DNA from: Verrucomicrobiia bacterium
GTDB taxonomy: Bacteria; Verrucomicrobiota; Verrucomicrobiia; Verrucomicrobiales; Akkermansiaceae
Assembly (NCBI GenBank): GCA_030432565.1
Contig: JAUIGV010000008.1
Span: 1 to 64,000 of the forward strand
Direction of reading: 5' to 3'
Length of the DNA: 64,000 nt
The position numbers were made by a program, and so were the translations under genes. Below, in pieces: positions 5,236 through 45,412 of the stretch (its first letter is position 1; each line of letters begins with the position of its first letter). The notes under the pieces were generated by a model. The model was not told where the DNA came from, searched no databases, and saw nothing but the letters and a program-made list of their open reading frames with translations.

Positions 5236-6231
5236 ATGGCAGAAATACCGATGAACAGTGAAACAGCGCGAGCGGTGCTGGGAAAAGTTGCGGCGCGCGC
5301 GGGCTGGATCGTCCCGGGCCTGATTTTCGTGGCGGGTGCCTTCACGAGTTATTTTACGGTCCCGGCAGATTCTGAGGCCGTCGTCCTCCGTTTCGGAAAA
5401 TACAACCGGACCGCAAATCCGGGGCTCAATTTCAAGCTCCCCTTCTGGTTCGAGACCAAGGAGATCATTCCGGTCGCGAGAACACTGAAAATGGAGTTTG
5501 GCTTTGGGACCGAAGGTTCCACGAACCCCTTTCAGAGTCGGCCAAAGGAACACGGTGCCGAACAGACCATGATCACGGGTGACAAAAACTCTGCCTTGGT
5601 CGAATGGGTCGTGCAATATCGCATCAGCGATCCCGAGGCCTACCTCTTTCGCGTCCGTGATCCCGAGGATACAATGCGCGATGCCTCGGAGTCCGTGATG
5701 CGGGAAGTGGTGGGTGATCGCACGGTTGATGAAGTCATCACCATCGGTCGTCAATCCATCGAAACGGATGCGCTTGTGAAACTTCAAGCCCTCGTTGATT
5801 CCTACGGACTCGGCCTTCAGATCGACCAGCTCCAGCTCAAGAACGTCAACCCGCCCCGACCGGTTCAGCCCTCCTTTAACGAGGTGAACCAGGCCCAGCA
5901 GGATAAGGCCAAGCAAATCAACGTAGCAAAGGGTCTCTACAATAAAGCGGTCCCGCGAACTTTGGGAGAAGCCGATCAGAAGATCAGTGCCGCCGAAGGA
6001 AGCAAGCTCCAGCGGGTGAATGAGGCGACCGGTGATGCCGAGCGCTTTTTGGCCCTCTTTGCCGAATACGAGAAAGCTCCGAACATCACCCGCCAACGGC
6101 TCTACCTCGAAGCGATCAAAAAAGTCATGCCCCGTCTCAAAAGCAAAGTCATCATGGATGGAGAGGCCAGCAAGCCGCTGCCGCTTCTGGACCTTAACAA
6201 CGCCTTGAATGGAAAGGGAGGTGCCCGATGA
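5236..6231 (+). CDS. hflK: HflK, membrane SPFH protein that modulates FtsH
   Basis: Subunit of the HflKC cage that surrounds FtsH in the inner membrane and limits proteolysis of membrane substrates. After a short N-terminus, a transmembrane segment (AGWIVPGLIFVAGAFTSYF, about 23-41) leads into the SPFH/band-7 domain (VPADSEAVVLRFGKY, NPGLNFKLPFWFE). The predicted helical region has the NPPRPVQPSFNEVNQAQQ turn typical of HflK (residues about 205-225). At 331 residues it lacks the long Gly-rich N-terminal arm of proteobacterial HflK. It overlaps hflC by 4 bases (ATGA), so the two are translationally coupled. Confidence 0.95.
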   Translation: MAEIPMNSETARAVLGKVAARAGWIVPGLIFVAGAFTSYFTVPADSEAVVLRFGKYNRTANPGLNFKLPFWFETKEIIPVARTLKMEFGFGTEGSTNPFQSRPKEHGAEQTMITGDKNSALVEWVVQYRISDPEAYLFRVRDPEDTMRDASESVMREVVGDRTVDEVITIGRQSIETDALVKLQALVDSYGLGLQIDQLQLKNVNPPRPVQPSFNEVNQAQQDKAKQINVAKGLYNKAVPRTLGEADQKISAAEGSKLQRVNEATGDAERFLALFAEYEKAPNITRQRLYLEAIKKVMPRLKSKVIMDGEASKPLPLLDLNNALNGKGGAR

Positions 6232-22796: not shown

Positions 22797-23396
22797 ATGC
22801 AAACAAGAAACGTAGACCCAAACATCACCGTGACCGTGCGTCACGAAGACGTCACTGATTCACTGCGGCAGTATGCCCAGGACAAGATCAGTGGCATTCA
22901 TCTGGATTATCCGCGCATCATCGAGGCCAAGGCCATACTCGATGTCGAAGGAAGCCGTCGGCATAAAGCCGAAATCATCCTCTTTTGCGCCAACCATATC
23001 GTCATCGATGCTTCGTCCGAGACCGATGACATGTATAAGAGCATCGACTTTACCATCGACAAAATCGCGCGACGCATGCGCAAGCACAAGACCCGACTGC
23101 TGAAGCGCCGAACTCCCCGGCAGGAGGAGAGCATCCGCTACCTCGACGAAAGAAACTACCGGGCCGACTTCCTCGACAACCTGCCGGACGAAGTCAATGA
23201 AATGGAGGAACCGGAGCCCTTCTTCGTTCACAAGGAATCCTTCAGCCTCAGAAAGCTCTACAAGGAAGAAGCGGTCATGGAACTGGACCTCACCGAGCGT
23301 CCATTTGTCGTCTTCAAAAACGCGCGACGGGACGTGACTTCCATCGTTTGGCGCAAGCCCGATGGCGACTACGGCATGGTCGACATTGCCGACTAG
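22797..23396 (+). CDS. hpf: Ribosome hibernation promoting factor (long form, HPF/YfiA family)
   Basis: 199 residues with the S30AE/HPF domain at about 1-105 (ITVTVRHEDVTDSLRQYAQDK, SRRHKAEIILFC, DDMYKSIDFTIDKIARRMRKHKTRLLKRR) and a C-terminal dimerisation domain at about 135-195 (FFVHKESFSLRKLYKEEAVMELDL, RPFVVFKNARRD). Long HPF makes 100S ribosome dimers in stationary phase or stress. It is downstream of rho by 79 bp, on the same strand. A strong terminator follows. ATG 22797 has no ideal ribosome binding site. Confidence 0.95.
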   Translation: MQTRNVDPNITVTVRHEDVTDSLRQYAQDKISGIHLDYPRIIEAKAILDVEGSRRHKAEIILFCANHIVIDASSETDDMYKSIDFTIDKIARRMRKHKTRLLKRRTPRQEESIRYLDERNYRADFLDNLPDEVNEMEEPEPFFVHKESFSLRKLYKEEAVMELDLTERPFVVFKNARRDVTSIVWRKPDGDYGMVDIAD

Positions 23397-23422: not shown

Positions 23423-23455
23423 TCCGGATGATCCATGGATCATCCGGATTTTTTT
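23423..23455 (+). terminator. Strong terminator after hpf
   Basis: A perfect palindrome (TCCGGATGATCC and GGATCATCCGGA) at 23423-23448 is followed by seven T residues at 23449-23455. It separates rightward hpf from the leftward osmC-like gene that ends at 23461. Confidence 0.92.
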
Positions 23456-23460
23456 GCGCC

Positions 23461-23871
23461 TTAAGCCTGCCAGCGCCAATCGATATTCACCTCGATTTCG
23501 GGGTGAATGCTGTGCTGCACCGGGCAGGTCAGAGCGGCATTTTCAAGGACTTTACGATCAGGATGATCTCCGGCGACCGGCACGTGAATCTCGACATCCA
23601 GGCGGGCGATCCGGCGAGGAAGGTCGGCGGACATTTCCTTCAGCACAATCAAGCGAAGACCTTTGAGATTGATCTCCCGCTGTCTCGCCACGATTCCCAT
23701 GATGGTGGCCATGCAGGTTCCCAGCGCGGTCGCCACCATATCGGTCGGGGAAAAACTTTCACCCCGCCCCTCGTTATCAACCGGGGCGTCGGTCGTCACC
23801 TTGTTCCCGGACGGCATGTGCTCAGCCGAGCACCGCAACTGGCCTTCATAATCAATTTGGATCTCCACCAT
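23461..23871 (-). CDS. OsmC/Ohr-family thiol peroxidase-like protein
   Basis: 136 residues matching the OsmC family: an N-terminal strand region (VEIQIDYEGQLRCSAEHMPSG), PVDNEGRGESFSPTDMVATALGTCMATIMGI with first cysteine C53, and AALTCPVQHSIHPEIEVNIDW with second cysteine C116. The two cysteines at this spacing are the catalytic pair that reduces organic hydroperoxides, usually with dihydrolipoyl or thioredoxin-type reductants. It starts within the last 20 bases of the PEGA-FGE kinase gene and shares its operon. The frame continues open upstream through that gene, but ATG 23871 gives the correct family N-terminus. Confidence 0.9.
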   Translation of the reverse strand: MVEIQIDYEGQLRCSAEHMPSGNKVTTDAPVDNEGRGESFSPTDMVATALGTCMATIMGIVARQREINLKGLRLIVLKEMSADLPRRIARLDVEIHVPVAGDHPDRKVLENAALTCPVQHSIHPEIEVNIDWRWQA

Positions 23872-26461
23872 TTTCTTCGTTCTCTTCGTTTTCTTCAGTG
23901 ATTTCCTGTTCGACATCCCGGGCCAAAACAACCCGAAACCCAAAGCTATCACTCCGGTGCTCCACATCAATCGGAAAGCGGAATCGTGTTTCCAGATGCT
24001 CCTCACTAAAAGTATCCCAACCTCCGCCGCGCAAGATTCCCCGGCGGGCATTCCCGTATGAATCAGAGACCCATTCATGCACATTCCCTCCAATATCGTG
24101 CAAGCCAAGGGAGTTTGATGCAAACTGCCCCACCGGAGCCAGCTTTTTAAAACCATCATCGTAGTCCGCGATGATTCGGTCACTGTCGATAAACACAATC
24201 GCTGAGAGATCGGCATAGTTCCCGACCAGTCGATCCGGAGGGAAAGTCTGACCCCAGGGAAACTGCCCTGCATTGACGACGTCAGACTCCCGCTCGGCCG
24301 GCGTTTCACCGATTTCAATCAAGCCCGCCATCCTGCTCCATTCCGAATCGGTCGGTAAGCGGTAACGGTAATCCTTCGTAATTCGGTTGAGATCTGCGTT
24401 GGGGTTATCCCGCTCGCTCTTGGTCAGCCATTCGCAAAACGCTTCACACTCCGCGCGGGTCAGACCAACGACCGGGACCAGGGGATCCTCGCTCAAAACC
24501 TCATCCCCGACCTTCTTTCCGGTCGCTTTAAGAAAGCGGCGATAGTCCATGGTGCGAGTCTCCCACTTTGAAACACTCAGCTCATCATCGGGCATCGACA
24601 CCAACTCCATCTTAATGCTGTTCGTCCAGGCTTTCCCGGGCTCAAAACTCTCGTCGGGAACCAAATCATAGACCTTGCTAAACTCTCCCCGATCCGGGAG
24701 ATAGACGTTGTCGACCCTCGTCTTTTTGCCTCCCATCGCAAGAGTGATCTCAATGTCGCCCGGAGCAATATTGGGACCGTTAAAGGGCGTTACCCCCACC
24801 AAAACCTTATTCAAGTAGAGGCTCGCTCCACTAGGGTTCGAATCGATTGTCAACGAGCCATAAGGGATTGGTCTGACCCAACAATAGAAGGGTCGCAGGA
24901 GCTTGCCTCCCTTCTTGGCCTCTGCAGGAAGTCTTGTGGCATCAAAAGACAGATCATAGTGTGGAATGATCTGACGATTCCTCTCCGGATTTTCGTCCGA
25001 ATACTCGTCAAAATATCCCTGATCAATGCATTTCTCCTCCAGCCACTTTGCGTAGCCCACTGTCCAGGCCTCTGGAACCGCAACGACCTTGCGACCACTG
25101 TAGTCGAAAGGGATTGCCTTGAGTTTTTGCTTTTGGTTCGTCTCCTTCAAATAGAGTTCCCAATCCGCCTCACTGACATGGTCTACCGCCTTGTGCAGAT
25201 CCAAATAGGGCTTGTAATCATTCCCCAGCGCATCAGTCCATATTTCTTCAAACTTGGGTGGCGAAAAGAGATTCATCACCCTATCGATAATCATGACCTG
25301 ATTCCCCTCGTCGACCACTTTTTGATCGATGATCAGGTCACGGCGATTGGGCGCTTTGATCTGCAACTCCAACACCGAATCCACTTCAACCCCGGTTAAA
25401 GTGGCCGGCGTGTAGCCCAACCGCTTCCCTTCATTATTAAAAACCTCGGCACCTGCCGGAGTTGTGAGAACCTTAACCATCACATATCGTTCCGGCAGAG
25501 GCTCCAACTGTCCTTCGATTACGTGCGTCCCCCATGTCTTTTCGAGCCAGATCTGACTCGTAAACAAGCCCATCACGAAGAGCACACCCAGAGCAACCTT
25601 GGCGTAACCCGGCACTTTCTTGGGAGCATTCTTGCCGCGCTGAAGGTGACTCAGGGCATGGGCCAGGTCGCGTCCGGTCTGAATCTTGCGCTTGGCCATT
25701 CGCGGATCGCAGATGTCGCAGATCATGCGATTCAGCCGGATCCATTTCTTGCGATAATCATCGGCCGGCGTCTCATCCGGCAACTCGGGAAACTGCAAGC
25801 GATCCATCCCGGTCGCCATCTCGTAAAGAACTTTCCCAAGGCTATAAATATCCGCCTGCTCCGAGCCCGGTCCCTCGGGAGGCACAAAACCCTCCGTCCC
25901 AACAAAAGTCCGCTGGTCCTTGGCCGCCACCAATCCGATGTCTGCCAACTTCGCCTTGCCATCGACAAAGATGACGTTCGACGGTTTGACATCGCGGTGG
26001 GTCAGACCGCGTTCATGTAAGGCGGCCAGAGCGTCGGCGAGACGCTTCCCGGTTTCGATACAGAAGTTCGTCGACAGCGGTTTCCCGTTCGCCCGCATCA
26101 TGTCGGTGCGCAGCGTCCGCGGCTCGTATTCCACCGGATTGATTTCATCATCACTGTGGGCGTCGTCACCCAACTCCATCACGTAATAATAAAACTCGCT
26201 GTGATCATCACTACGTCCGACGTGAAGAATATTCACGAAGCCCCGGTGGTCCCGCGAGATCGGCTCAAATCTCAAGATCCCCTCGAACTCACGCTCGAAA
26301 GTCCGCTCATCGGAGAAGTCCTCGCGATAGACGATTTTCACCGCCCTCATCGCACCGGTGACTCCACGAGCCAACCAGACTTCACCATAGGCCCCGCCCC
26401 CGATTTTACGGAGGACTTCGTGATCCGGGATCAACGGGTCTGGCCTAATCTTTTTTTGCAT
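23852..26461 (-). CDS. Ser/Thr protein kinase with membrane anchor, two PEGA domains and a formylglycine-enzyme-like domain
   Basis: 869 residues. The Hanks-type kinase (about 10-285) has the glycine loop IGGGAYGEVW (20-29), catalytic Lys in RAVKIV (K42), HRDVKPSN (155-162) and ADIGL in place of DFG. A single membrane helix at about 285-305 (VALGVLFVMGLFTSQIW) separates it from two PEGA-type repeats (around 327-360, TTPAGAEV...GYTPATL; and around 545-585, SNPSGASLYLNKVLVGVTP). The C-terminal FGE/sulfatase-modifying-factor-like domain (about 600-855) has GGNVHEWVSDSYG and RGILRGGGWDTF. It ends with an acidic tail. Stop lies within the osmC-like gene (20-base overlap) and its start overlaps the sigma factor gene by 17 bases. 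The kinase is therefore expressed with an ECF sigma factor. Confidence 0.9.
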   Translation of the reverse strand: MQKKIRPDPLIPDHEVLRKIGGGAYGEVWLARGVTGAMRAVKIVYREDFSDERTFEREFEGILRFEPISRDHRGFVNILHVGRSDDHSEFYYYVMELGDDAHSDDEINPVEYEPRTLRTDMMRANGKPLSTNFCIETGKRLADALAALHERGLTHRDVKPSNVIFVDGKAKLADIGLVAAKDQRTFVGTEGFVPPEGPGSEQADIYSLGKVLYEMATGMDRLQFPELPDETPADDYRKKWIRLNRMICDICDPRMAKRKIQTGRDLAHALSHLQRGKNAPKKVPGYAKVALGVLFVMGLFTSQIWLEKTWGTHVIEGQLEPLPERYVMVKVLTTPAGAEVFNNEGKRLGYTPATLTGVEVDSVLELQIKAPNRRDLIIDQKVVDEGNQVMIIDRVMNLFSPPKFEEIWTDALGNDYKPYLDLHKAVDHVSEADWELYLKETNQKQKLKAIPFDYSGRKVVAVPEAWTVGYAKWLEEKCIDQGYFDEYSDENPERNRQIIPHYDLSFDATRLPAEAKKGGKLLRPFYCWVRPIPYGSLTIDSNPSGASLYLNKVLVGVTPFNGPNIAPGDIEITLAMGGKKTRVDNVYLPDRGEFSKVYDLVPDESFEPGKAWTNSIKMELVSMPDDELSVSKWETRTMDYRRFLKATGKKVGDEVLSEDPLVPVVGLTRAECEAFCEWLTKSERDNPNADLNRITKDYRYRLPTDSEWSRMAGLIEIGETPAERESDVVNAGQFPWGQTFPPDRLVGNYADLSAIVFIDSDRIIADYDDGFKKLAPVGQFASNSLGLHDIGGNVHEWVSDSYGNARRGILRGGGWDTFSEEHLETRFRFPIDVEHRSDSFGFRVVLARDVEQEITEENEENEENGGDPN

Positions 26462-35312: not shown

Positions 35313-35852
35313 ATGACCTTGACCAGAAGAGGCGAAAGAGTTCACAGTTCCGCCGTGCGCCCCTTTCTCCTCCTTGCTTTTCTTTTGCCAATTTTTCCAT
35401 CCTGCACGGAAGTCTCCAGCGGCCCCGGGAACATGGGAGGCCTGCCCACGATCAGCACCCGAAAAGCTCAAATCGAGGCCGAACCCCGGGGCGATTTCTA
35501 CTACGGACGCCGCTATTTTGTGAAAAAAACACGCTTTTGGGGATATCTTCGGGAACCCGGCCAATCGGCGGAAAAGGCCAAATTGGTCATTTTTAACGAA
35601 TCACGGAAATTGAACCCCGACCGCCTCCCCGAAGCAGGGGGCAGCAAAAACTACGGATTCGACAACAATTACGAGTATCGGATTTACGGACGCTACACGG
35701 GGCGTGAACTCTACGAACCCAATAGCAACCAATTCCTCCCCGAATTCCTCCTCACCGACTACAAACTCGTATCAAAGAATCCAGGATGGCTCTTTTCCCC
35801 CTCGGATCGTTACTATCCCACCCGTCTCACCCTTCTTCCTCCAAGCTTCTGA
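35313..35852 (+). CDS. Hypothetical lipoprotein upstream of nuoD
   Basis: 179 residues with an N-terminal signal ending in lipobox FPSC (VRPFLLLAFLLPIFPSC). The mature domain of about 150 residues is rich in Tyr, Arg and Asn (RRYFVKKTRFWGYLREPGQSAEK, DNNYEYRIYGRYTGRELYEPNSN) and is unrecognised. It ends 75 bp before nuoD; a perfect palindrome lies between the two, so nuoD is probably regulated separately. Confidence 0.75.
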   Translation: MTLTRRGERVHSSAVRPFLLLAFLLPIFPSCTEVSSGPGNMGGLPTISTRKAQIEAEPRGDFYYGRRYFVKKTRFWGYLREPGQSAEKAKLVIFNESRKLNPDRLPEAGGSKNYGFDNNYEYRIYGRYTGRELYEPNSNQFLPEFLLTDYKLVSKNPGWLFSPSDRYYPTRLTLLPPSF

Positions 35853-35858
35853 TCCCGA

Positions 35859-35880
35859 CTTTGTGAAATATTTCACAAAG
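35859..35880. promoter_or_regulatory. Perfect 22-bp palindrome, candidate Rex or CRP-type operator of nuoDEF
   Basis: CTTTGTGAAATATTTCACAAAG reads identically on both strands: half-sites TTGTGAA and TTCACAA with an ATAT centre. It lies 47 bp before the nuoD start. The pattern fits the Rex consensus TTGTGAA-N4-TTCACAA at all specified positions, and equally fits the CRP/FNR-superfamily spacing TGTGA-N6-TCACA. No T tract follows, so it is not a terminator. A role in NADH/NAD+ (Rex) or cAMP/other control of complex I genes is inferred from position. Confidence 0.7.
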
Positions 35881-35926
35881 TCCTTGCGAGCCCCGAAGAA
35901 CGAGAGTTTCATGCCGGTGTCTTAAC

Positions 35927-37183
35927 ATGAGCGAGACCACTACTTACGAGGCCCCGGATGCCGCTGCCGTCGCAGCAAAGGCCGTTACCGATTACCAAGC
36001 GGAGACCGACGATGTCCTCGGCGAAAAGATGGTCCTGAACATGGGCCCGTCACACCCCGCCACGCACGGAGTGTTGCGCCTTGTGCTGGAATTGGACGGC
36101 GAAATCATCGAAAAAGCCGAGCCTCACATCGGCTACCTACATCGCGGCGACGAAAAGATCGCCGAGAACATGCATTACAACCAGTTCGTCCCCTACACCG
36201 ACCGACTGGATTACCTCGCACCACTCGCCAACAACGTCGCTTACGCCTGCGCGGTCGAGAAACTGATGGGCTGGGAATTGCCACCGCGCGGCCAGGCACT
36301 CCGTGTTCTTTGCTGCGAACTCGCCCGGATTTCCTCCCATATGCTTGGAGTCGGCGTCTGTGCCATGGATGTGGGAGCCATGACTGTCTTCCTTTACACC
36401 TTCACCGAGCGCGAGAAGATCTACAATTTCTGCGAACAACTCACCGGAGCCCGCTTTACGACATCCTACACTCGCGTTGGTGGCCAGATTCGCGATATTC
36501 CCGAGGGGTTGGATAAGGACATCCTCAATTTCCTCGATGAGTGCGAAAACACCATCAAGGAGATCGCCGGGCTTCTGAACAACAACAAGATTTATCTCGA
36601 GCGCATGTGCGACGTCGGCGTGATCAGCCGCGAGGACGCCATCAGCTACGGCATGACCGGCCCCAACCTCCGCGCCTCCGGAGTCGCCCGCGACCTTCGG
36701 AAAGACAGCCCCTACCTCGGCTACGAGAAATACGATTTCGACATTCCCGTCGGCCAAAATGGCGATTGCTACGACCGCTACCTCATCCGCATGGAGGAAA
36801 TGCGCCAGTCCATCAAAATTATCCGTCAGGTCCTTGCCGATTTCCCCGAAGGCGAAATCAACGTGGGCGATACCAAGTCCACCCTCCCTGACAAGGAACG
36901 CGTCCTCATGTCGATGGAGGAGCTCATCCACCACTTCATCGTCGCCACCCAGGGGATCGAGGCCCCTGCGGGCGAGGTTTATTTTGCCGCCGAGAACCCC
37001 AAAGGGGAACTTGGCTTCTACATTCATTCCAAAGGCGGCGGAGTTCCGAACCGCCTGAAAATCCGCGCCCCGTCCTTCGTCAACCTTGGCATCTGCGCCG
37101 AACTCCTCAAAGGCCATATGGTTTCCGACATTCCAGCCATCCTCGGCTCACTCGACTTCGTCATGGGCGAGTGCGACCGCTAA
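35927..37183 (+). CDS. nuoD: NADH-quinone oxidoreductase subunit D
   Basis: 418 residues, the 49-kDa subunit of complex I. Signatures are LNMGPSHPATHGVLRLVLELDGE near the N-terminus, EPHIGYLHRGDEKIAENMHYNQ, TDRLDYLAPLANN, and the C-terminal FINLGICAELLKGHMVSDIPAILGSLDFVMGECDR-type end. It faces the cytoplasm at the quinone-binding junction with subunit B. It is the first of nuoDEF, all on one strand, and the nuoABC genes are not upstream in this window, so the complex I genes are split. Preceded by the 35859-35880 palindrome. Confidence 0.97.
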   Translation: MSETTTYEAPDAAAVAAKAVTDYQAETDDVLGEKMVLNMGPSHPATHGVLRLVLELDGEIIEKAEPHIGYLHRGDEKIAENMHYNQFVPYTDRLDYLAPLANNVAYACAVEKLMGWELPPRGQALRVLCCELARISSHMLGVGVCAMDVGAMTVFLYTFTEREKIYNFCEQLTGARFTTSYTRVGGQIRDIPEGLDKDILNFLDECENTIKEIAGLLNNNKIYLERMCDVGVISREDAISYGMTGPNLRASGVARDLRKDSPYLGYEKYDFDIPVGQNGDCYDRYLIRMEEMRQSIKIIRQVLADFPEGEINVGDTKSTLPDKERVLMSMEELIHHFIVATQGIEAPAGEVYFAAENPKGELGFYIHSKGGGVPNRLKIRAPSFVNLGICAELLKGHMVSDIPAILGSLDFVMGECDR

Positions 37184-37221
37184 ATCTACGTCTAATTTTT
37201 CAACCTGATTTTTTTCTTAAG

Positions 37222-37932
37222 GTGAGTTCTAAAATTGAAGTCCCCCGCCCCCGCTCGATCGACCGGTCCAAGCTGAGCTACGTCCGTCTCCACACCCCTG
37301 AATTGCGCGAAGCGCCAAAGCCGCCTGAGATCGACCGGAGTTCTGTGGAATACAGTAGTGCGCAACCAAGCGTTCTCGAGAAGAACGTTCACTCTCCGGT
37401 CACTCCCGGCGCGGTTCACTTCCCGCCTTTCAAGGTCACTCCATCTCTGGAAAAGGCAGCTGACAAGCGCATCTCCCAGTATCCCGATGACCAACGACGT
37501 TCGGCTGTTCTTCCCCTCCTGCACGAAGTCCAGCACCGGCACGGTTTCATCAGCCCGGAGTCCATTGAATGGGTTGCCAAGAAACTCGACATCGCCGCGA
37601 TCAAGGTAGTGGAAGTCGTCACCTTCTATCCCGGCTTCCGCCAGAAAGCTCCCGGCAAGCTCCACTTCCGGGTCTGCCGTACCCTCTCTTGTGCCATGGG
37701 GGGATCCTACGAACTCATGGCCAGGCTTTGCGAACTCACCGGAATCGATCGCGGTTCCGCCGATGCTCACAAAGACCCGATTTCCGTCTCCCCTTGCGGG
37801 AACTACTCGGTCGAATACGCCGAGTGCCTGGCATCCTGCGGGACGGCCCCGGTCTGCCTCGTCAACGACGACTTCCACGAAGGCGTCACTCCCGAGAAGG
37901 CCGAGGGACTCATCGCTCAATACGAAAGCTAA
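37222..37932 (+). CDS. nuoE: NADH-quinone oxidoreductase subunit E
   Basis: 236 residues if started at GTG 37222. The thioredoxin-like [2Fe-2S] domain has the four ligands C152, C157 (CRTLSC), C202 and C206 (ECLASC), with ISVSPCGNYSVEYAECLASCGTAP. The upstream lead-in PLLHEVQHRHGFISPESIEWVAKKLDIAAIKVVEVVTFYPGF is also canonical. It has an N-terminal extension of about 75 residues, Pro/Glu/Arg-rich, that common NuoE lacks. The frame opens at 37171 inside nuoD, but the GTG at 37222 fits the intergenic spacing better. It is 39 bp after the nuoD stop. Confidence 0.95.
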   Translation: MSSKIEVPRPRSIDRSKLSYVRLHTPELREAPKPPEIDRSSVEYSSAQPSVLEKNVHSPVTPGAVHFPPFKVTPSLEKAADKRISQYPDDQRRSAVLPLLHEVQHRHGFISPESIEWVAKKLDIAAIKVVEVVTFYPGFRQKAPGKLHFRVCRTLSCAMGGSYELMARLCELTGIDRGSADAHKDPISVSPCGNYSVEYAECLASCGTAPVCLVNDDFHEGVTPEKAEGLIAQYES

Positions 37933-37961
37933 TTTTCACCACCCCCAAATTTACCAAGCTC

Positions 37962-39362
37962 ATGTCTGACATCACCTACCTCCCCGGCAAGGAACCTCAC
38001 GAAAAAGAGCATCGCCTGATCTTCAAAAATGTTGATCGCAAGGGCTGGAACACCAAGATCAAAACCTACCTCGCAGAGGGTGGCTATGAGATGGCCAAAA
38101 AAGCTCTCAAGATGGATCCGAAAGAAGTCATCGAGGAGGTGAAGACCTCGGGCCTTCGCGGGCGTGGCGGCGCCGGCTTCCCAACCGGCATCAAGTGGGG
38201 CTTCATCCCCCCAAACAATACCAAGCCGGTTTACCTGATCTGCAACTGCGACGAATCGGAGCCCGGCACGTTCAAGGACCGCTACATCGTTCACCAGGAC
38301 CCACACCAGCTCATCGAGGGCATGGTCATCTCCGCCTACGCGGTCGGAGCTCACGTCGCTTACATTTACATCCGCGAGGAATTTCCGGAAGCCGCGATCA
38401 CCCTTGAAAAGGCCATCGCCGATGCCAGGAAAAACGGCTTTCTCGGAAAAGACATCCAAGGTTCCGGCTTTGATCTCGAAATTTACGTCCACCGCGGAGC
38501 GGCCGCCTACATTTGTGGAGAAGAAACCGGCCTCATCGAGTCTCTCGAAGGCAAACGCCCCTACCCACGAATCAAACCGCCCTACTTCCCGGCAGCCATC
38601 GGCCTCTACATGGCACCAACCATCGTGAACAACGTGGAGTCGCTCTGCCACGTCGTCCACATCCTCCGCATGGGCGGCGACGAATATGCCAAACTGGGCA
38701 CACCGCGGAATTCCGGAACCCGTATCGTCTGTGTTTCGGGCGACGTTAAAAAGCCGGGCTTCTTCGAAATCGAAGTCGGCAAGGTTACCTTCGAGGAACT
38801 CCTCTACGACATGTGCGGCGGTCCCAAGGACGGACGTAAACTCAAGGCCGTTATCCCAGGCGGTTCATCATCCAAGATTCTCCGCTGCAACGAAAGCTTC
38901 AAGATCGGCCGCGGTGACGACGCCAAGGAAATGACTTTCTGGCAGTTGCCTCTCGACTTCGACACCCTCGCTGCCGCCGGCTCCATGGCGGGCTCGGGCG
39001 GTGTCATCGTGATGGATGACACCCGCCGCATGTCGTGGGTGCTCAACAATATCACCCACTTTTACGCGCACGAATCCTGCGGACAATGCACACCGTGTCG
39101 CGAAGGTTCCACTTGGATGAAGAAGGTCTCCGATCGTATCGAAGAAGGCAAGGCCACCCCAAACGACGTTCAGGTTTTGGAAGACATTGCCTACCAGATC
39201 GACGGTAAGACCGTTTGCGCCTTTGGCGAAGCCAGTGCCTGGCCGGTGGAAGCAATGATCGACAAGTTCCGCGACGAACTCGTTGGCGAAACTTCGGACG
39301 AGAACGACACCCGCTCCGCCGAGCGAATCGCTCAGGAGCAGTTCCTCTCAGCCGTTCAATAA
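37962..39362 (+). CDS. nuoF: NADH-quinone oxidoreductase subunit F
   Basis: 466 residues. NADH- and FMN-binding parts are visible (GLRGRGGAGFPTGIKWGF at about 64-82, CNCDESEPGTFKDR). The C-terminal 4Fe-4S cluster is bound by C373, C376 and C379 (ESCGQCTPC) and C419 (KTVCAFGE). The enzyme oxidises NADH and passes electrons to FMN and the iron-sulfur chain. ATG 37962 is 29 bp after nuoE. Its stop abuts the next ATG at 39363 without a gap, so the small lipoprotein gene is coupled to it. nuoG is not present next to it. Confidence 0.97.
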   Translation: MSDITYLPGKEPHEKEHRLIFKNVDRKGWNTKIKTYLAEGGYEMAKKALKMDPKEVIEEVKTSGLRGRGGAGFPTGIKWGFIPPNNTKPVYLICNCDESEPGTFKDRYIVHQDPHQLIEGMVISAYAVGAHVAYIYIREEFPEAAITLEKAIADARKNGFLGKDIQGSGFDLEIYVHRGAAAYICGEETGLIESLEGKRPYPRIKPPYFPAAIGLYMAPTIVNNVESLCHVVHILRMGGDEYAKLGTPRNSGTRIVCVSGDVKKPGFFEIEVGKVTFEELLYDMCGGPKDGRKLKAVIPGGSSSKILRCNESFKIGRGDDAKEMTFWQLPLDFDTLAAAGSMAGSGGVIVMDDTRRMSWVLNNITHFYAHESCGQCTPCREGSTWMKKVSDRIEEGKATPNDVQVLEDIAYQIDGKTVCAFGEASAWPVEAMIDKFRDELVGETSDENDTRSAERIAQEQFLSAVQ

Positions 39363-39745: not shown

Positions 39746-40111
39746 TCACCGAACCATTGCCAACCCGACTCCCGCGACGAGGGACGCCAGATTGCACAAC
39801 CATGTTGCATCCCGGATCTTCTTTTCCGAATGCTTTCGCCAAAAGCCAATGAGAGAGCCTAGTGAAGAGAGCCCCGCTCCAACAACCCAGATTACCGCCA
39901 TCCCGAGAACCCTCATCGCTTTGTCGAATCGATGAGGAACAATCTGGCTATTGCTTGTTTCCCCCGATTGCTCAGCCTCCTTCTCAAACCTCAAGCGGGA
40001 TGGTTGTTCTTCCAGAAGAAAGAATCCGAACCCCGCAATGACGGACAAGAAACACACAGCAGAGCCGGCCAGATGAAGCCAGTCACTGTCTTTTAACTGC
40101 AAATTTTTCAT
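39746..40111 (-). CDS. Small membrane protein at the end of the ABC operon
   Basis: 121 residues with hydrophobic stretches at about 15-35 (LAGSAVCFLSVIAGFGFFLLE), 68-90 (VLGMAVIWVVGAGLSSLGSLIG) and near the C-terminus (LASLVAGVGLAMVR). No family recognised. Its ATG overlaps the TGA of the permease gene (TGATG), which supports translation from the same mRNA. It ends without a visible terminator before the small lipoprotein gene. Confidence 0.6.
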   Translation of the reverse strand: MKNLQLKDSDWLHLAGSAVCFLSVIAGFGFFLLEEQPSRLRFEKEAEQSGETSNSQIVPHRFDKAMRVLGMAVIWVVGAGLSSLGSLIGFWRKHSEKKIRDATWLCNLASLVAGVGLAMVR

Positions 40112-41070
40112 CACCTTTGTCTTCTTACCCGCTGCTTGATCATTTCATCGGCAATCACTGCCACGAGTAGAACCACTCCCACGATCAGGAACTCCATGTG
40201 CGACTTCAACCAATCGACGAGGTTGATCATATTTTTCAAAAGCTGCATCACCGCCGTCCCGATCACGACCCCCACGATGGTTCCTTCCCCCCCGCGAAGA
40301 CTGCACCCACCCAAGACCGCGGCCGCAATCGCGTAGAGCTCGTAGAAATTTCCAAAGTCACTCGGCTGGGCGGAGTTTCCATTTAAAATAAAGAGAAGCC
40401 CGCCAAGCGCCGCCAGCATTGAGCAAATGACATAAGATAAAATCACCATTCGGTCGGTATTGATGCCACTCAATCGAGCCGCTTCCTCATTGTTCCCCAG
40501 GGCAAAGAGATATCGCCCCCAGATTGTCTTGTTCAAAAAGACCCAGGCTATCGCCGCGACGACGATCAAAATCACAAAGGGGTATGGAATCCCAAACTTA
40601 CTCGTCACCGCGATTGCTTCCGTTCCCCAACTCCGAAACGCTTCGTACTCACCGCCAAATCCCTGGGACTGATCCTCGGCAAGCCCCCGCGTCGCTCCCC
40701 GGTAAATCAGCAAACTACAGAGAGTCACCACAAAAGGCTGTAGCTTGAGCTTGGTAATGAGAAACCCGTGCCAAAGCCCAATGCACATCGACACCACAAT
40801 CGCCATCAGCACGGCAGCTCCCGGCGACCAATCTTGTTTCATCACCAGCCATGGCACCCCGCAACCGACCAGGCAAACCACCGAGCCAATCGAAAGGTCG
40901 ATCCCACCCGTAATAATCACAAACGCCACCCCGATTCCCAACAGCCCGTACAGGCCGGTCCGTTCGAGCAACTTCCCCTGATTATACCCCCCCAGAAAAT
41001 TCTCCCCCAGGAAAGCCGTCGCCACGTAGATCACAATCAGGGTGATCAGGATGCCTTTGATTTTTTTCAT
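40111..41070 (-). CDS. ABC transporter permease, ribose/sugar type (RbsC-like)
   Basis: 319 residues of the BPD_transp_2 fold with about eight hydrophobic segments. The GIGVAFVIITGGIDLSIGSVVCLVG motif and ALGNNEEAARLSGINTDRMVILSYVICS are typical of CUT2-class permeases. LKNMINLVDWLKSHMEFLIVGVVLLVAVIADEM is the conserved C-terminal part. ATG 41070 was chosen. It follows the ATPase gene by one base and is encoded with the binding protein and ATPase at 41072-43569. Confidence 0.9.
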   Translation of the reverse strand: MKKIKGILITLIVIYVATAFLGENFLGGYNQGKLLERTGLYGLLGIGVAFVIITGGIDLSIGSVVCLVGCGVPWLVMKQDWSPGAAVLMAIVVSMCIGLWHGFLITKLKLQPFVVTLCSLLIYRGATRGLAEDQSQGFGGEYEAFRSWGTEAIAVTSKFGIPYPFVILIVVAAIAWVFLNKTIWGRYLFALGNNEEAARLSGINTDRMVILSYVICSMLAALGGLLFILNGNSAQPSDFGNFYELYAIAAAVLGGCSLRGGEGTIVGVVIGTAVMQLLKNMINLVDWLKSHMEFLIVGVVLLVAVIADEMIKQRVRRQR

Positions 41071-41071
41071 C

Positions 41072-42577
41072 TTATTCTGCTTTGTTGATGTTCCCTCCCG
41101 TCGCCAATTCCATGATGGCCTCTTCACTAAAATCCTCGCGAGCCAACTCTCCCGTGATCCGCCCCTCGTGCATCACCAGCGTTCGATCCGCCATCCCCAT
41201 AATCTCCTCCATCTCGCTGGAAACAAACAGAATCGCCATCCCCTCGCTCGCAAATCTCTCCATGAGCAGGTAAATCTCCTCCTTCGCCCCGATATCGATC
41301 CCTCGGGTCGGTTCATCAAGAAGCAGCACCTTGGGCTTCAACGCCAACCACTTGGCGAGAACAATCTTCTGTTGGTTCCCTCCTGAAAGAAAACGAACCA
41401 GCTGCCACGAACCGGGCGTCTTCACACTCAGCGCAGACGTCATTTCCGCCACCAGCTCTTCCTCCTTGCTCACGTTTACAAACGGCCCTCGGGCTGCGTG
41501 CCGGAGCGAGGCCAGACTCATGTTCTCCTTCACCGCCATATCAAGGATGACCCCCTGCCCCTTCCGGTCCTCCGGAACCAGGGCAAGCCCTCGCTCAAGC
41601 GCCTCCCTCGGCGAGCGCGGCAATCCTTCCCGACCGCCCACCGACACTTCGCCTGACAAGGCAGGCCGTGCGCCAAATAAGGCGGCCAACATCTCACTCC
41701 GGCCTGCTCCCACCAGACCGGCCACCCCCACGACTTCACCCGCCCGCACCTCAAACCCGAGTTCATTCGATGGGTGCTCCACCGTCCGCAGCCCACGAAC
41801 CGAAAGCGCCACCTCTCCCAACTCATGTTCCGTCCTTTGATAAAACTGCGAAACATCACGCCCCACCATCATCCGTACCATGGCATCATGATCCACTTCA
41901 TCCCGCTCCAGCATTCCCGCGTTCTCTCCATCACGAAACACCACCACCCGGTCAGCCAACTCCTTGACCTCTCCCAGCCGATGGGAAATATAAATTACGC
42001 TCACTCCGTTCTCCCGAAGATCGCGGATCACTTCAAAGAGCCGCTCGGATTCGTTCATCGACAAACTCGACGTCGGCTCGTCCATGATGATCACCTTGGC
42101 TTCGGTCGAAAGCGCCTTCGCAATCTCAACCAACTGCTGTTTGCCCAGCGTCAATTCGCTCAGCAAAGTATCCGGCGACACCTCGAGACCGACCATCTCC
42201 AACACCCTCTTCGCTTCCCGCTCAATCGCCCTTTGGTCAATCCAACCGAATTTCCCCGGCTCACGCCCCAAAAACATGTTGGCCGCCACCGTCAGGTTAT
42301 CTGCCAAATTCAGCTCCTGGTGAATCAAGGCAATCCCCGCCTTCTGGGCGTCCTGCACGTGAGCAAACCGAACTACCTTTCCGTCGACCAACAACGCCCC
42401 TTCATCCGCGGGCTGAACCCCGGCGAGAATTTTCATGAGCGTGCTTTTCCCCGCTCCGTTCTCACCAATGAGAGCCACCACCTCGCCAACGTTCACCCGC
42501 AAGTCCACGCCCGAGAGAGCGACAACCCCTGGAAAGCGCTTCGTGATTTTTCGAACCTCCAGAAAAGGCTCTCCCAT
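41072..42577 (-). CDS. ABC transporter ATP-binding protein, sugar type with two ATPase halves (RbsA-like)
   Basis: 501 residues, two ABC modules in one chain as in CUT2 importers. The first half has Walker A GENGAGKSTLMKIL and signature-type LTLGKQQLVEIAKAL. The second half has VGAGRSEMLAALFGARP with a degenerate Walker A, and a signature FLSGGNQQKIVLAKWL with LLLDEPTRGIDIGAKEEIY. Import of a pentose or related sugar is likely but the substrate is not shown by the sequence. ATG 42577 overlaps the TGA of the binding protein (TGATG). Confidence 0.93.
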   Translation of the reverse strand: MGEPFLEVRKITKRFPGVVALSGVDLRVNVGEVVALIGENGAGKSTLMKILAGVQPADEGALLVDGKVVRFAHVQDAQKAGIALIHQELNLADNLTVAANMFLGREPGKFGWIDQRAIEREAKRVLEMVGLEVSPDTLLSELTLGKQQLVEIAKALSTEAKVIIMDEPTSSLSMNESERLFEVIRDLRENGVSVIYISHRLGEVKELADRVVVFRDGENAGMLERDEVDHDAMVRMMVGRDVSQFYQRTEHELGEVALSVRGLRTVEHPSNELGFEVRAGEVVGVAGLVGAGRSEMLAALFGARPALSGEVSVGGREGLPRSPREALERGLALVPEDRKGQGVILDMAVKENMSLASLRHAARGPFVNVSKEEELVAEMTSALSVKTPGSWQLVRFLSGGNQQKIVLAKWLALKPKVLLLDEPTRGIDIGAKEEIYLLMERFASEGMAILFVSSEMEEIMGMADRTLVMHEGRITGELAREDFSEEAIMELATGGNINKAE

Positions 42578-43569
42578 CACTTTCCAAGCTTGGAATTTAG
42601 GTCGGCCCAAAAAGCCTCCAGGTTATCCTTGCGAATCTGGCGTGCCGGAATATCGATGATTTTGCTCTCGGGAATGACCGAGGTATCGCCGTTGGCGAGG
42701 GCATGAAGGACCCTGATGGAGCGATTTCCATACTCATAAGGATCCTGAACCACGGTCCCGTGGACCGTGCCGTCCTTGATCGCTTGCAGCGTGACCTCAT
42801 CCTCATCAAAACCAACGACCTTGACTTCCCCGATCCTCCCGGCCTGCTTCAATGCCTCTAAAATGAGCGGTGGATTGTAGGCAAAAAGTCCCACCATGGC
42901 AGCGACCCCTTCGTGTTTGGTCAGCATATCTTCCACGTTGGCCTTTCCTTTCGCCCGGTCAAATTGATCAGTCAAAGTCGCAAGAACGGTGTATTTTTCA
43001 CCGATCTGCGACTGCCCCGGAGCGTCGAAACGGCTGGGATCCTTACCGCGGTCAAGGAGACAATCAATCACGCCCTGACGACGGCGCTTCGCATTATCCT
43101 GCTCAAGTCGACCGATAAAGAGAACGACCTCTCCTCCCTCGGGAATTGCCTCCTTCACCAATTCACCGCACATCCAGCCTGCATCGTAATTGTCCATTCC
43201 CACGTAAACCTGACGCTTACTCGTGGGAGCATCGGTATCCATCGTGATCAAAATAGATTTTTCCGCCACCTCGTCATACAAGCCCGCCTGGTTGACCGGA
43301 TCGATGGCCGCCACGGAAATCCCATCCACTCCCTTTGCCAGCAGATCCTCAAGCTTGGACCTCTGATCGTCGCCCGATGATGGCATCAGCACCTCGACTT
43401 CAACTCCCAGCTCTTCCCCGGCATCCTCCCCGCCTTTCTTGCAAATATCCCAAAACGAAGCAACCCCGGTAGTGACCAGAGCATAGCTCGCCTTTCCTCC
43501 GTCTTTCTCTCCACAACCGGAGAATGCGAACGCGCCAAGCGCTACCGTGCAGGCCAAAAAATTTTTCAT
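42577..43569 (-). CDS. Substrate-binding lipoprotein of a sugar ABC importer
   Basis: 330 residues with a lipoprotein signal (lipobox FSGC). The Peripla_BP_4 fold is seen in SYALVTTGVASFWDICKKGGEDAGEEL, VDGISVAAIDPVNQAGLYDEVAEK, ILITMDTDAPTSKRQVYVGMDNYDAGW and VKVVGFDEDEVTLQAIKDGTVHGTVVQDPYEYG. It is the first gene of the importer operon, followed by the ATPase and permease. The ligand is probably a monosaccharide or polyol. ATG 43569 was chosen, the frame being open further to 43713. It is divergent from dabB. Confidence 0.92.
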   Translation of the reverse strand: MKNFLACTVALGAFAFSGCGEKDGGKASYALVTTGVASFWDICKKGGEDAGEELGVEVEVLMPSSGDDQRSKLEDLLAKGVDGISVAAIDPVNQAGLYDEVAEKSILITMDTDAPTSKRQVYVGMDNYDAGWMCGELVKEAIPEGGEVVLFIGRLEQDNAKRRRQGVIDCLLDRGKDPSRFDAPGQSQIGEKYTVLATLTDQFDRAKGKANVEDMLTKHEGVAAMVGLFAYNPPLILEALKQAGRIGEVKVVGFDEDEVTLQAIKDGTVHGTVVQDPYEYGNRSIRVLHALANGDTSVIPESKIIDIPARQIRKDNLEAFWADLNSKLGK

Positions 43570-43710
43570 GAGGCGGGAATCAAACCCTGCCACCCGTGAA
43601 GGGACCAGCAGAAAAACACCTGATCTCTCCCGGGGGCAACCAACGAACTCGATTTCATGACTCAACTTTCCACCCAAAGTGAAAATTCCGAGACCTTGGC
43701 AAATCTCCAT

Positions 43711-43726
43711 CAAAGTCCTTTGATTC
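43711..43726. promoter_or_regulatory. Candidate operator in the divergent dabB / importer promoter region
   Basis: ATCAAAG TC CTTTGAT, an inverted repeat with 7-bp arms and a 2-base centre, midway between the two divergent starts at 43569 and 43772. Its position suits a regulator acting on both directions, but no regulator gene is adjacent and no known consensus is matched. Confidence 0.35.
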
Positions 43727-43771
43727 TGTTTTTAAGAACGATTTTTACCTAAAGATATATTGGATGGAATT

Positions 43772-45412
43772 ATGATTTTCGACTTATTCTCTCCCCGTCA
43801 CATGAATTCACCCATGCTTGCAAACATCGCCACCACCGTTCACCCCGCGCTCATCATCGCCGGGCCACTCCTCGTCCTCGCCTTCGGACTGGTTCCAGAC
43901 CGGGTCTCAAATCCCATCGCCCGGCGTTTCGCCAGAAATGCCTCGCTCGCCGCCATCGGGGCTTTCGTCCTCGCATGCGTTTCCACCATCGGCCTCGCCA
44001 TCTCGGGGCCGGTCAATGTCGGATTCGAAGTCAAAGGCCCCGTCCGCATCGACTTCCTCTTCGACACCCTTTCCGCGATCATGCTCCTCCTCGTCTCCTT
44101 TCTCGGAGCAGTGGTCATTCGCTTCTCCGGCAATTACCTCGCCGGAGACCCCAATCAGGGCCGCTTCACCCGCTGGATGTGCCTTACCGTCGGGTCGGTT
44201 CTCGTCCTGACAATTTCCGGAAATTTTCTAATGTTCACCCTGGCCTGGATCGCCACCAGCCTGAGCCTTCACAAACTCCTCACCTTCTACTCGGACCGGC
44301 CCGCAGCCCGGCTTTCGGCCAATAAAAAGTTCATGATCAGCCGCCTCGGTGACGCCGCCCTTATCGGAGCCCTTTTCGCCACCTACCAATGCTTCGGCAC
44401 CTGGGAATTCTCCAAAATCTTCTCAGCCAGCGAGATCGCCCGCGCTCAGAGCGAAAACGCCAACTGTGTCGGACTTTCCGCCTTTCTCCTCGTGATAGGA
44501 GCCCTTCTCAAATCCGCACAATTTCCTTTCCACAGCTGGTTACCCGATACGATGGAATCCCCCACTCCGGTCTCGGCCCTGATGCACGCCGGCATCGTCA
44601 ACGCGGGAGGCTTCCTCGTCGTTCGCTTCAGCCCCATCATTACCTTCTCAACAGCCTCGCTCAACGCCCTCGCCCTGGTCGGAGCCTTCACCGCCCTCTT
44701 CGCCTCCGTCATCATGCTGCCACAAACCAGTGTGAAGCGCTCCCTCGCTTATTCGACCATCGCGCAAATGGGCTTCATGATGCTCCAATGCGGACTCGGG
44801 GCCTTCGCCCTCGCCATCCTCCACCTCGTCGCCCATTCGCTCTACAAAGCCTACGCTTTCCTCTCCTCGGGAAGCATCGTGAGCATCAGCAAATCCGCCT
44901 GGACTCCCTCCGAGCGCCCAAGCGCCCGCCCCTTCGTTCTACTTTCCACCCTCGTCGCAGCGGTCGGACTCACCTTCGCCATCGGCTCCCTCTTCGGAGC
45001 TCACGCCTCCGGAGCGCCCGGAGTTCTTCTCCTCGGATCCATCTTCATCATGGCCCTGGTCTACCTCCTTTGGAATCTCTGGTCTTCCTCGCACCGTTCC
45101 TCGCTGATCATTTCGGGGCTCGTCATCACCAGTATCACTGCGACCGCCTACTTCTCCCTTCACACTCTTTTTGGCCACCTTCTCGCGAATGTCACCGCGA
45201 CCCACCAACCTGATCGCTCGACCGCCGAACTCGTCGTTATGGCCCTCGTCGGACTCGCCTTCATGGCCGTCCTCGTCCTGCAATCGCAACTCCCCGGATG
45301 GTCCACCACGAGGCTTGGTCGCAAGATCTACGTTCACGCCTCCCACGGATTCTACATCAGCACCATCTTCAACCGACTCACCCTTGCTCTCTTCAAAAAA
45401 AGCCACTCTTAA
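43772..45412 (+). CDS. dabB: DabB, membrane subunit of the DAB inorganic carbon transporter (NuoL/MrpA-like)
   Basis: 546 residues with about 13 membrane helices, of the proton-translocating NuoL/MrpA superfamily. Motifs are GNFLMFTLAWIATSLSLHKLLTFY, GALLKSAQFPFHSWLPDTMESPTPVSALMHAGIVNAGGFLVVRF, and SVKRSLAYSTIAQMGFMML, with the lysine and glutamate residues of the proton path. Pairing with the DUF2309 gene 24 bp downstream identifies it as DabB, which supplies the membrane energy for CO2 hydration by DabA. ATG 43772 was chosen because GGATGGAATT precedes it as a weak ribosome binding site; ATG 43802 and TTG 43760 are alternatives. Confidence 0.9.
   Translation: MIFDLFSPRHMNSPMLANIATTVHPALIIAGPLLVLAFGLVPDRVSNPIARRFARNASLAAIGAFVLACVSTIGLAISGPVNVGFEVKGPVRIDFLFDTLSAIMLLLVSFLGAVVIRFSGNYLAGDPNQGRFTRWMCLTVGSVLVLTISGNFLMFTLAWIATSLSLHKLLTFYSDRPAARLSANKKFMISRLGDAALIGALFATYQCFGTWEFSKIFSASEIARAQSENANCVGLSAFLLVIGALLKSAQFPFHSWLPDTMESPTPVSALMHAGIVNAGGFLVVRFSPIITFSTASLNALALVGAFTALFASVIMLPQTSVKRSLAYSTIAQMGFMMLQCGLGAFALAILHLVAHSLYKAYAFLSSGSIVSISKSAWTPSERPSARPFVLLSTLVAAVGLTFAIGSLFGAHASGAPGVLLLGSIFIMALVYLLWNLWSSSHRSSLIISGLVITSITATAYFSLHTLFGHLLANVTATHQPDRSTAELVVMALVGLAFMAVLVLQSQLPGWSTTRLGRKIYVHASHGFYISTIFNRLTLALFKKSHS

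Follow-up and report, generated by a model that had tools for sequence, protein, structure and literature searches.

Which protein recognises the long palindrome that stands in front of the complex I genes nuoDEF in this Akkermansiaceae-like bacterium of the Verrucomicrobiia, and how far does its control reach? To our knowledge, little is known of transcriptional regulation in Verrucomicrobiales. The window considered here is the whole stretch of DNA analysed, 64,000 nucleotides (64 kb) in length. From the sequence comparisons described below, the palindrome is very probably a Rex operator before nuoDEF and one of five near-identical ones, through which a single Rex would coordinate complex I (three clusters), alternative complex III and the F1Fo ATP synthase. 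The features around it are as follows.

35313..35852, + strand: preceding 179-aa ORF, no Pfam family matched, ending 4 bp before the palindrome
35857..35882, no strand: 26-bp palindrome, predicted Rex operator with extended arms; five copies in the genome, kept in relatives
35861..35878, no strand: core operator TTGTGAA-N4-TTCACAA, the same as the published Rex motif of S. avermitilis and S. aureus
35884..35889, + strand: putative -35 element TTGCGA, directly beside the operator towards nuoD, placed by TTG phasing across promoters
35907..35912, + strand: tentative and weak -10 candidate TTTCAT at 17-bp spacing from the -35, placed by phasing across promoters
35927..37183, + strand: nuoD, complex I subunit D, first gene downstream (TIGR01962 NuoD, E 1.9e-164, over cut-off)
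37171..37932, + strand: nuoE, complex I subunit E (PF01257, E 3e-38; TIGR01958 nuoE_fam, E 1.8e-38, below cut-off)
37569..39362, + strand: ORF containing nuoF (PF01512 Complex1_51K, E 3.5e-48; PF10589, E 2.4e-30)

The perfect palindrome spans 35857-35882 and measures 26 bp (GACTTTGTGAAAT/ATTTCACAAAGTC). The preliminary description had given a 22-bp perfect palindrome at 35859-35880, which is indeed perfect and forms the inner part of the longer one. It had also placed it 47 bp before nuoD; the nuoD ATG at 35927 comes 46 bases after 35880 and 44 bases after the end of the 26-mer. The core TTGTGAAATATTTCACAA (35861-35878), which has the A/T-rich centre of a Rex operator and 0 mismatches to TTGTGAA-N4-TTCACAA, is the sole exact match in the window. 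As had been pointed out, the palindrome fits this pattern and the CRP pattern TGTGA-N6-TCACA, exactly in both cases. By chance, about 0.001 perfect palindromes of at least 26 bp are expected per 64 kb, and when the window was simulated 30 times with a Markov-1 model, the longest palindrome of each run measured 14-18 bp.

The true nuoE start may lie inside the ORF at 37171..37932, and the NuoF part starts inside the ORF at 37569..39362, its domains covering residues 191-571. No Pfam match was obtained for the 179-aa ORF. Farther on, sugar ABC transporter genes (40111-43713, minus strand; permease, ATPase and binding protein, by reading of the ORFs) sit between nuoDEF and an antiporter-like gene at 43760-45412, which encodes a NuoL/Mrp-like subunit (PF00361, PF00662) apart from the nuo clusters. 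For this gene, the window holds no exact Rex core other than that of nuoD; at a guess, its product may serve an inorganic-carbon uptake system as the membrane component.

Candidate regulator and predicted operators in the genome

As the preliminary description had left the choice between Rex and a CRP-type protein open and proposed a search for both genes, we examined the assembly (82 contigs, 5.93 Mb, 97.3% complete). It holds one copy of rex, found as a single PF06971 match and coding for 219 aa. This protein matched nine NCBIfam Rex models, in six cases above the model's cut-off and best with NF003995 (E 3.3e-70), and both domains of the family are present over cut-off, namely the N-terminal winged helix (PF06971, E 9e-18) and the Rossmann domain (PF02629, E 5e-19). 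Two CoA_binding-domain matches occur in the genome: one is this Rex and the other begins like a succinate-CoA ligase alpha subunit. Among solved structures, eight distinct Rex sequences matched, from E 1.4e-41 (5zz5, the best) to 8.1e-36, one of them carrying only the title AT-rich DNA-binding protein. Moreover, the nucleotide loop GVGNLG and an A-x3-Y motif align with Thermus Rex, at positions judged by eye; the Ala/Tyr pair that contacts NAD+ is Ala94/Tyr98 in T. aquaticus Rex (PMC8063818, partial text). The cNMP_binding domain (PF00027), by contrast, gave 0 matches in the 97.3% complete genome, in a search that was positive in 10 of 14 control genomes, so that the CRP reading has no protein to carry it. 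With one rex and no CRP/FNR-type protein detected, the search favours Rex.

Exact cores are expected about 0.01 times in the 5.93-Mb genome from its base composition; 5 are present, against 0 for the reversed control. The extended pattern ACTTTGTGAAA-N2-TTTCACAAAGT, with up to 3 mismatches allowed, likewise has exactly 5 occurrences across the 5.93 Mb and none in the reversed control, and all five sites precede oxidative-phosphorylation operons: nuoD(EF), nuoG(HIJ), nuoB(C), atpB and actA. On contig C38, the site is followed by nuoG (TIGR01973, slightly below cut-off), nuoH and nuoJ, with a gene for an iron-sulphur protein where nuoI would stand between the last two; on C70 by nuoB and then nuoC; on C50 by atpB and the rest of the F1Fo ATP synthase cluster. 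On C5, a gene for a multihaem cytochrome c is followed by those for an iron-sulphur protein and an NrfD-like protein, an order that we take to be alternative complex III, actABC. Here, a second, weaker copy (2 mismatches) lies 25 bp on from the first (C5:101671-101713; 5672-5714 of locus L018). Tandem actA sites were also seen elsewhere: L197 resembles C5, and at L180 and L225 both copies are exact.

The search for further copies before respiratory genes, also proposed at the outset, was thus rewarded at nuo, atp and act operons. The redox switch on nuoDEF proposed earlier does have its predicted site there, but it would extend to at least five oxidative-phosphorylation operons. The complex I genes are split among several clusters, three of which carry the same operator, and this suggests how such scattered genes can remain co-regulated. 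For nuoA, located elsewhere, the best nearby match has 3 mismatches, is not convincingly placed and was not counted. Autoregulation of rex is frequent, not universal; in this genome, the match nearest to rex is no better than 4 mismatches.

Two candidates were set aside. A sixth exact match to TTGTGA-N6-TCACAA (contig C41, TTGTGAGTGATGTCACAA) was treated as chance, because it lies inside a 1116-aa ORF and is without the AA/TT arms. A repeat element was rejected: there are only five copies, all before oxidative-phosphorylation genes. At up to 2 mismatches, TTGTGA-N6-TCACAA finds at least 270 forward matches versus 106 in the reversed control, and there may be weaker regulon members beyond the five sites.

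Occurrence in relatives and in the phylum

The preliminary description had asked whether the nearest relatives share the palindrome, and many do. Among the best 80 of 591 nuoD loci from public genomes (nearest, an Akkermansiaceae MAG with 97% identity), the core stands before nuoD in 45/80, exactly in 43 and with one mismatch in 2; the region scanned was the 300 bp before nuoD with its first 20 bases, and L099, which has no upstream DNA, counts as a miss. The best of 400 mononucleotide-shuffled regions had 2 mismatches, and 0/400 reached one mismatch. When the 45 loci and the window were aligned (46 rows), most of the information fell in the core and the A flanking it, and a weaker TTG motif was seen from position 23 onwards.

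Fifty of the 80 genomes were then searched, comprising all 34 usable ones without a nuoD site and 16 with one. We found rex (PF06971) in 28/50 and the exact core in 25/50 (94 sites; reversed control 0 in all 50). The two go together: rex and site occur in 24 genomes, rex alone in 4, the site alone in 1 and neither in 21, that is, an exact site in 24/28 genomes with rex versus 1/22 without (Fisher p 7e-9). Even among the 34 genomes taken because their nuoD site is missing, an exact site occurs elsewhere in 10/13 with rex and 0/21 without (Fisher 2e-6); both p-values are too small, because shared ancestry inflates the counts. The rex-bearing genomes without an exact site are G029, G031, G033 and G050, the last of which has a one-mismatch site before nuoD, and the genome with sites alone is G037, a 2.5-Mb MAG with three sites in which rex was not detected.

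We next read the genes behind 80 sites, namely 75 of the 94 exact ones from relatives (none from G041 or G042, and 3/6 from G044) and the five here. For 71/80 of these, a reference gene (nuo, atp, act, ndh2 or rex) lies an estimated 13-126 bp downstream: ActA 17, AtpB 15, NuoD 14, NuoB 11, NuoG 8, NDH-2 2, NuoF 2, NuoE 1 and Rex 1. In this count, each tandem site counts as one, NuoD includes two sites that lie between nuoD and a divergent ndh2-like gene, and the NDH-2 call rests on Pyr_redox_2 plus a sub-cut-off NDH2_C match in one of the proteins. The sites thus lie at respiratory or NADH-linked promoters, as expected for Rex operators, in 5/5 cases here and 71/80 overall.

Nine of the 80 have no reference gene (L163, L168, L171, L213, L214, L215, L217, L232 and L233). 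AtpB lies downstream of L163, MqnE (menaquinone synthesis) downstream of L168, and a CtaD-like gene downstream of L233 (TIGR02891, E 1e-159, below cut-off, the stretch being truncated where the locus ends). L171 has a polyprenyl diphosphate synthase-like gene (below cut-offs) on one side and one for a substrate-binding protein (by eye) on the other, and L232 ends at a contig edge. An exported protein with a weak, sub-cut-off CarboxypepD_reg-like match follows L213. The exported proteins after the exact cores of L213 and L214, from two other genomes, are related (L214 resembles L213 by eye), and their His/Cys motifs resemble a copper protein, again by eye.

The picture changes across the phylum as a whole. 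Of 194 genomes sampled, 112 have a PF06971 match (108 over cut-off), 13 the exact site and 1 (G183) the reversed pattern. Sites occur in 10/112 genomes with PF06971 versus 3/82 without (G090, G122 and G175; Fisher 0.24), and with no association across the phylum, the link between rex and the site holds only in and near this order. Five of the 194 genomes have more than one site (5-9 each); all five belong to the same order as this genome and all have rex. The predicted multi-site regulon is therefore a property of this order and its near relatives, and elsewhere in the phylum Rex must, we infer, use other sites or motifs. In one genus of the same family (g2), 0/17 genomes (2.2-3.3 Mb) have a PF06971 match and 0/17 an exact core, an apparent joint loss of rex and operator; this genus is presumably Akkermansia. 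In three other genomes, G034 (L218), G106 and G212, the last two from outside this class, a site immediately precedes rex, which ties the motif to the protein.

Promoter geometry, mechanism and rival readings

The position of the operator relative to the promoter was analysed in 100 rows (45 from nuoD loci and 55 read sites), 98 after identical downstream stretches had been removed. Duplicate nuoD sites, four tandem actA sites (L180, L225) and eight unassigned sites were left out, and 13/17 actA sites are included. Oriented to the gene, the 98 promoters comprise 44 nuoD, 16 atpB, 13 actA, 11 nuoB, 8 nuoG and 6 others. A TTG starts 21-28 positions from the operator start on the gene side in 79/98, mostly at 23 or 25, versus 10/97 at the matching spacing on the other flank and about 11 occurrences in shuffles; the 21-28 range was chosen after the 46-row alignment had been seen, and the shuffles preserve base content only. 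A -10-like hexamer (at least 4/6) follows such a TTG by 16-18 bp in 33/98 promoters, against 0.9 in shuffles. Together, the phasing of the TTG and the -10-like spacing place the operator directly upstream of the -35, its centre at around -50.

The actA promoters appear to be built differently. The TTG after the operator is present in 75/85 non-actA promoters versus 4/13 at actA, where 7/13 have a -10-like hexamer about 17 bp from the operator's own TTGTGA (shuffles 1.9; 7 reached in 1/2000). A -10-like hexamer at this spacing was found in 3/85 non-actA promoters (shuffles 9.3). From this spacing, the actA operator seems to contain the -35, and the second actA copy of this genome starts with TTGTGA at the -35 position. 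At nuoD itself, a generic single-sequence scan called no consensus promoter and the start site implied by TTTCAT would give a leader of only ~8 bases; the nuoD promoter is therefore tentative.

At a low NADH/NAD+ ratio, a Rex dimer would bind the palindrome beside or over the -35 and hinder RNA polymerase. When NADH accumulates, Rex would release the operator, and complex I, complex III and ATP synthase would be transcribed together; since this release would free the respiratory genes, respiratory capacity would follow the NADH supply. We infer Rex binding, the NADH response and the sign of repression at these operators. A rival reading concerns this sign: Rex would repress only at actA, by overlap, and activate at nuo and atp from just upstream of the -35. 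An operator over the -35 favours repression at actA, and one abutting it makes activation possible at nuo and atp; in the S. avermitilis footprints the -35 is covered, whereas at these genes the operator lies just upstream of it, so that the sign here is not proven. Switching aerobic genes off when NADH accumulates is also conceivable. However, Rex is described as a repressor (PMC5355995, PMC2883068, PMC8063818; partial texts), and a dimer footprint of 27-29 nt (PMC5355995, partial text) centred near -50 would extend as far as the -35 boundary, where it could obstruct polymerase, so we consider activation unlikely. A wider joint reading also seems improbable: an order-wide Rex regulon treating oxidative phosphorylation as a unit, with actA repressed over the -35 and nuo/atp activated from upstream, taking in NDH-2, oxidase or menaquinone genes in some members, and lost with rex in the small-genome genus.

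The other two rivals question the nature of the site itself. CRP-family operators have the form TGTGA-N6-TCACA, and the half-sites match exactly, so a CRP/FNR-family protein controlling complex I has to be weighed; yet the cNMP_binding domain was not found in this 97% complete genome and, among the 50 genomes, the sites do not track CRP-type genes. PF00027 is present in 45/50; exact sites occur in all 5 genomes without it (5/5), and each of the 21 that lack both rex and site carries it. The conserved arms TTGTGAAA..TTTCACAA also extend beyond a CRP site. We therefore reject this reading as scarcely credible. An RNA hairpin, acting as terminator or mRNA end of the 179-aa gene that stops 4 bp before the palindrome, fares little better and is very unlikely. 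The whole 61-nt stretch does fold at -16.2 kcal/mol (z -4.3), but any perfect palindrome implies such folding. No T-run follows, a scan for intrinsic terminators (G+C-rich hairpin with T-run) found 0 at the palindrome, and letters, not pairing alone, are kept before unrelated genes at a fixed distance from a -35-like element; the hairpin is rejected on these grounds. Of the two proteins first proposed, then, Rex is the one upheld by its gene, the further copies and their conservation, and the palindrome is almost certainly a Rex operator rather than a CRP/FNR site.

Unlike the nuoD palindrome, the only other perfect 26-bp palindrome of the window (23423-23448, TCCGGATGATCC/mirror) has a T run after it. 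It lies between convergent ORFs, identified by eye, at 22797-23396 (+, ribosome hibernation factor-like) and 23461-24318 (-, OsmC-like end), is unique in the genome even when 3 mismatches are allowed and looks like a terminator.

Comparison with known Rex systems

The comparative study of Ravcheev and others (2012) is reportedly the main one of Rex regulons. The preliminary description had held that a redox switch of this kind would be new for the lineage. We found no report of Rex in Verrucomicrobia, and none linking Rex and redox sensing to alternative complex III, in a literature search of partial coverage, by which absence from print is not established. The analysis points to a single sensor that would coordinate a large part of respiration in this bacterium and many relatives; it offers a concrete, testable regulator and target list for Verrucomicrobiales respiration, and would connect an NADH sensor with alternative complex III.

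That Rex controls nuo, ndh and atp is already known from Streptomyces (PMC5355995, partial text). According to the same partial text, Rex of S. avermitilis binds the motif TTGTGAANNNNTTCACAA, represses its targets (nuoA1-N1, atpIBEFHAGDC, ndh2 and rex) and is released by NADH; its atp genes fell under oxygen limitation with or without rex, from which the authors infer further regulators. As far as that text goes, the regulon shares its motif and its nuo and atp targets with this genome, and ndh2 with the relatives. The predicted regulon differs in that its targets include alternative complex III, with ctaD and mqnE in one relative each, and none of the 80 sites read was followed by a cyd or hem gene. 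There is no good site at rex in this genome, the complex I genes are scattered under separate operators, and the operator mostly abuts the -35 from upstream. In S. aureus, the Rex consensus TTGTGAAW4TTCACAA (PMC2883068, partial text) is identical to the operator here; there, Rex controls anaerobically induced genes, whereas here its predicted targets are those of core aerobic respiration.
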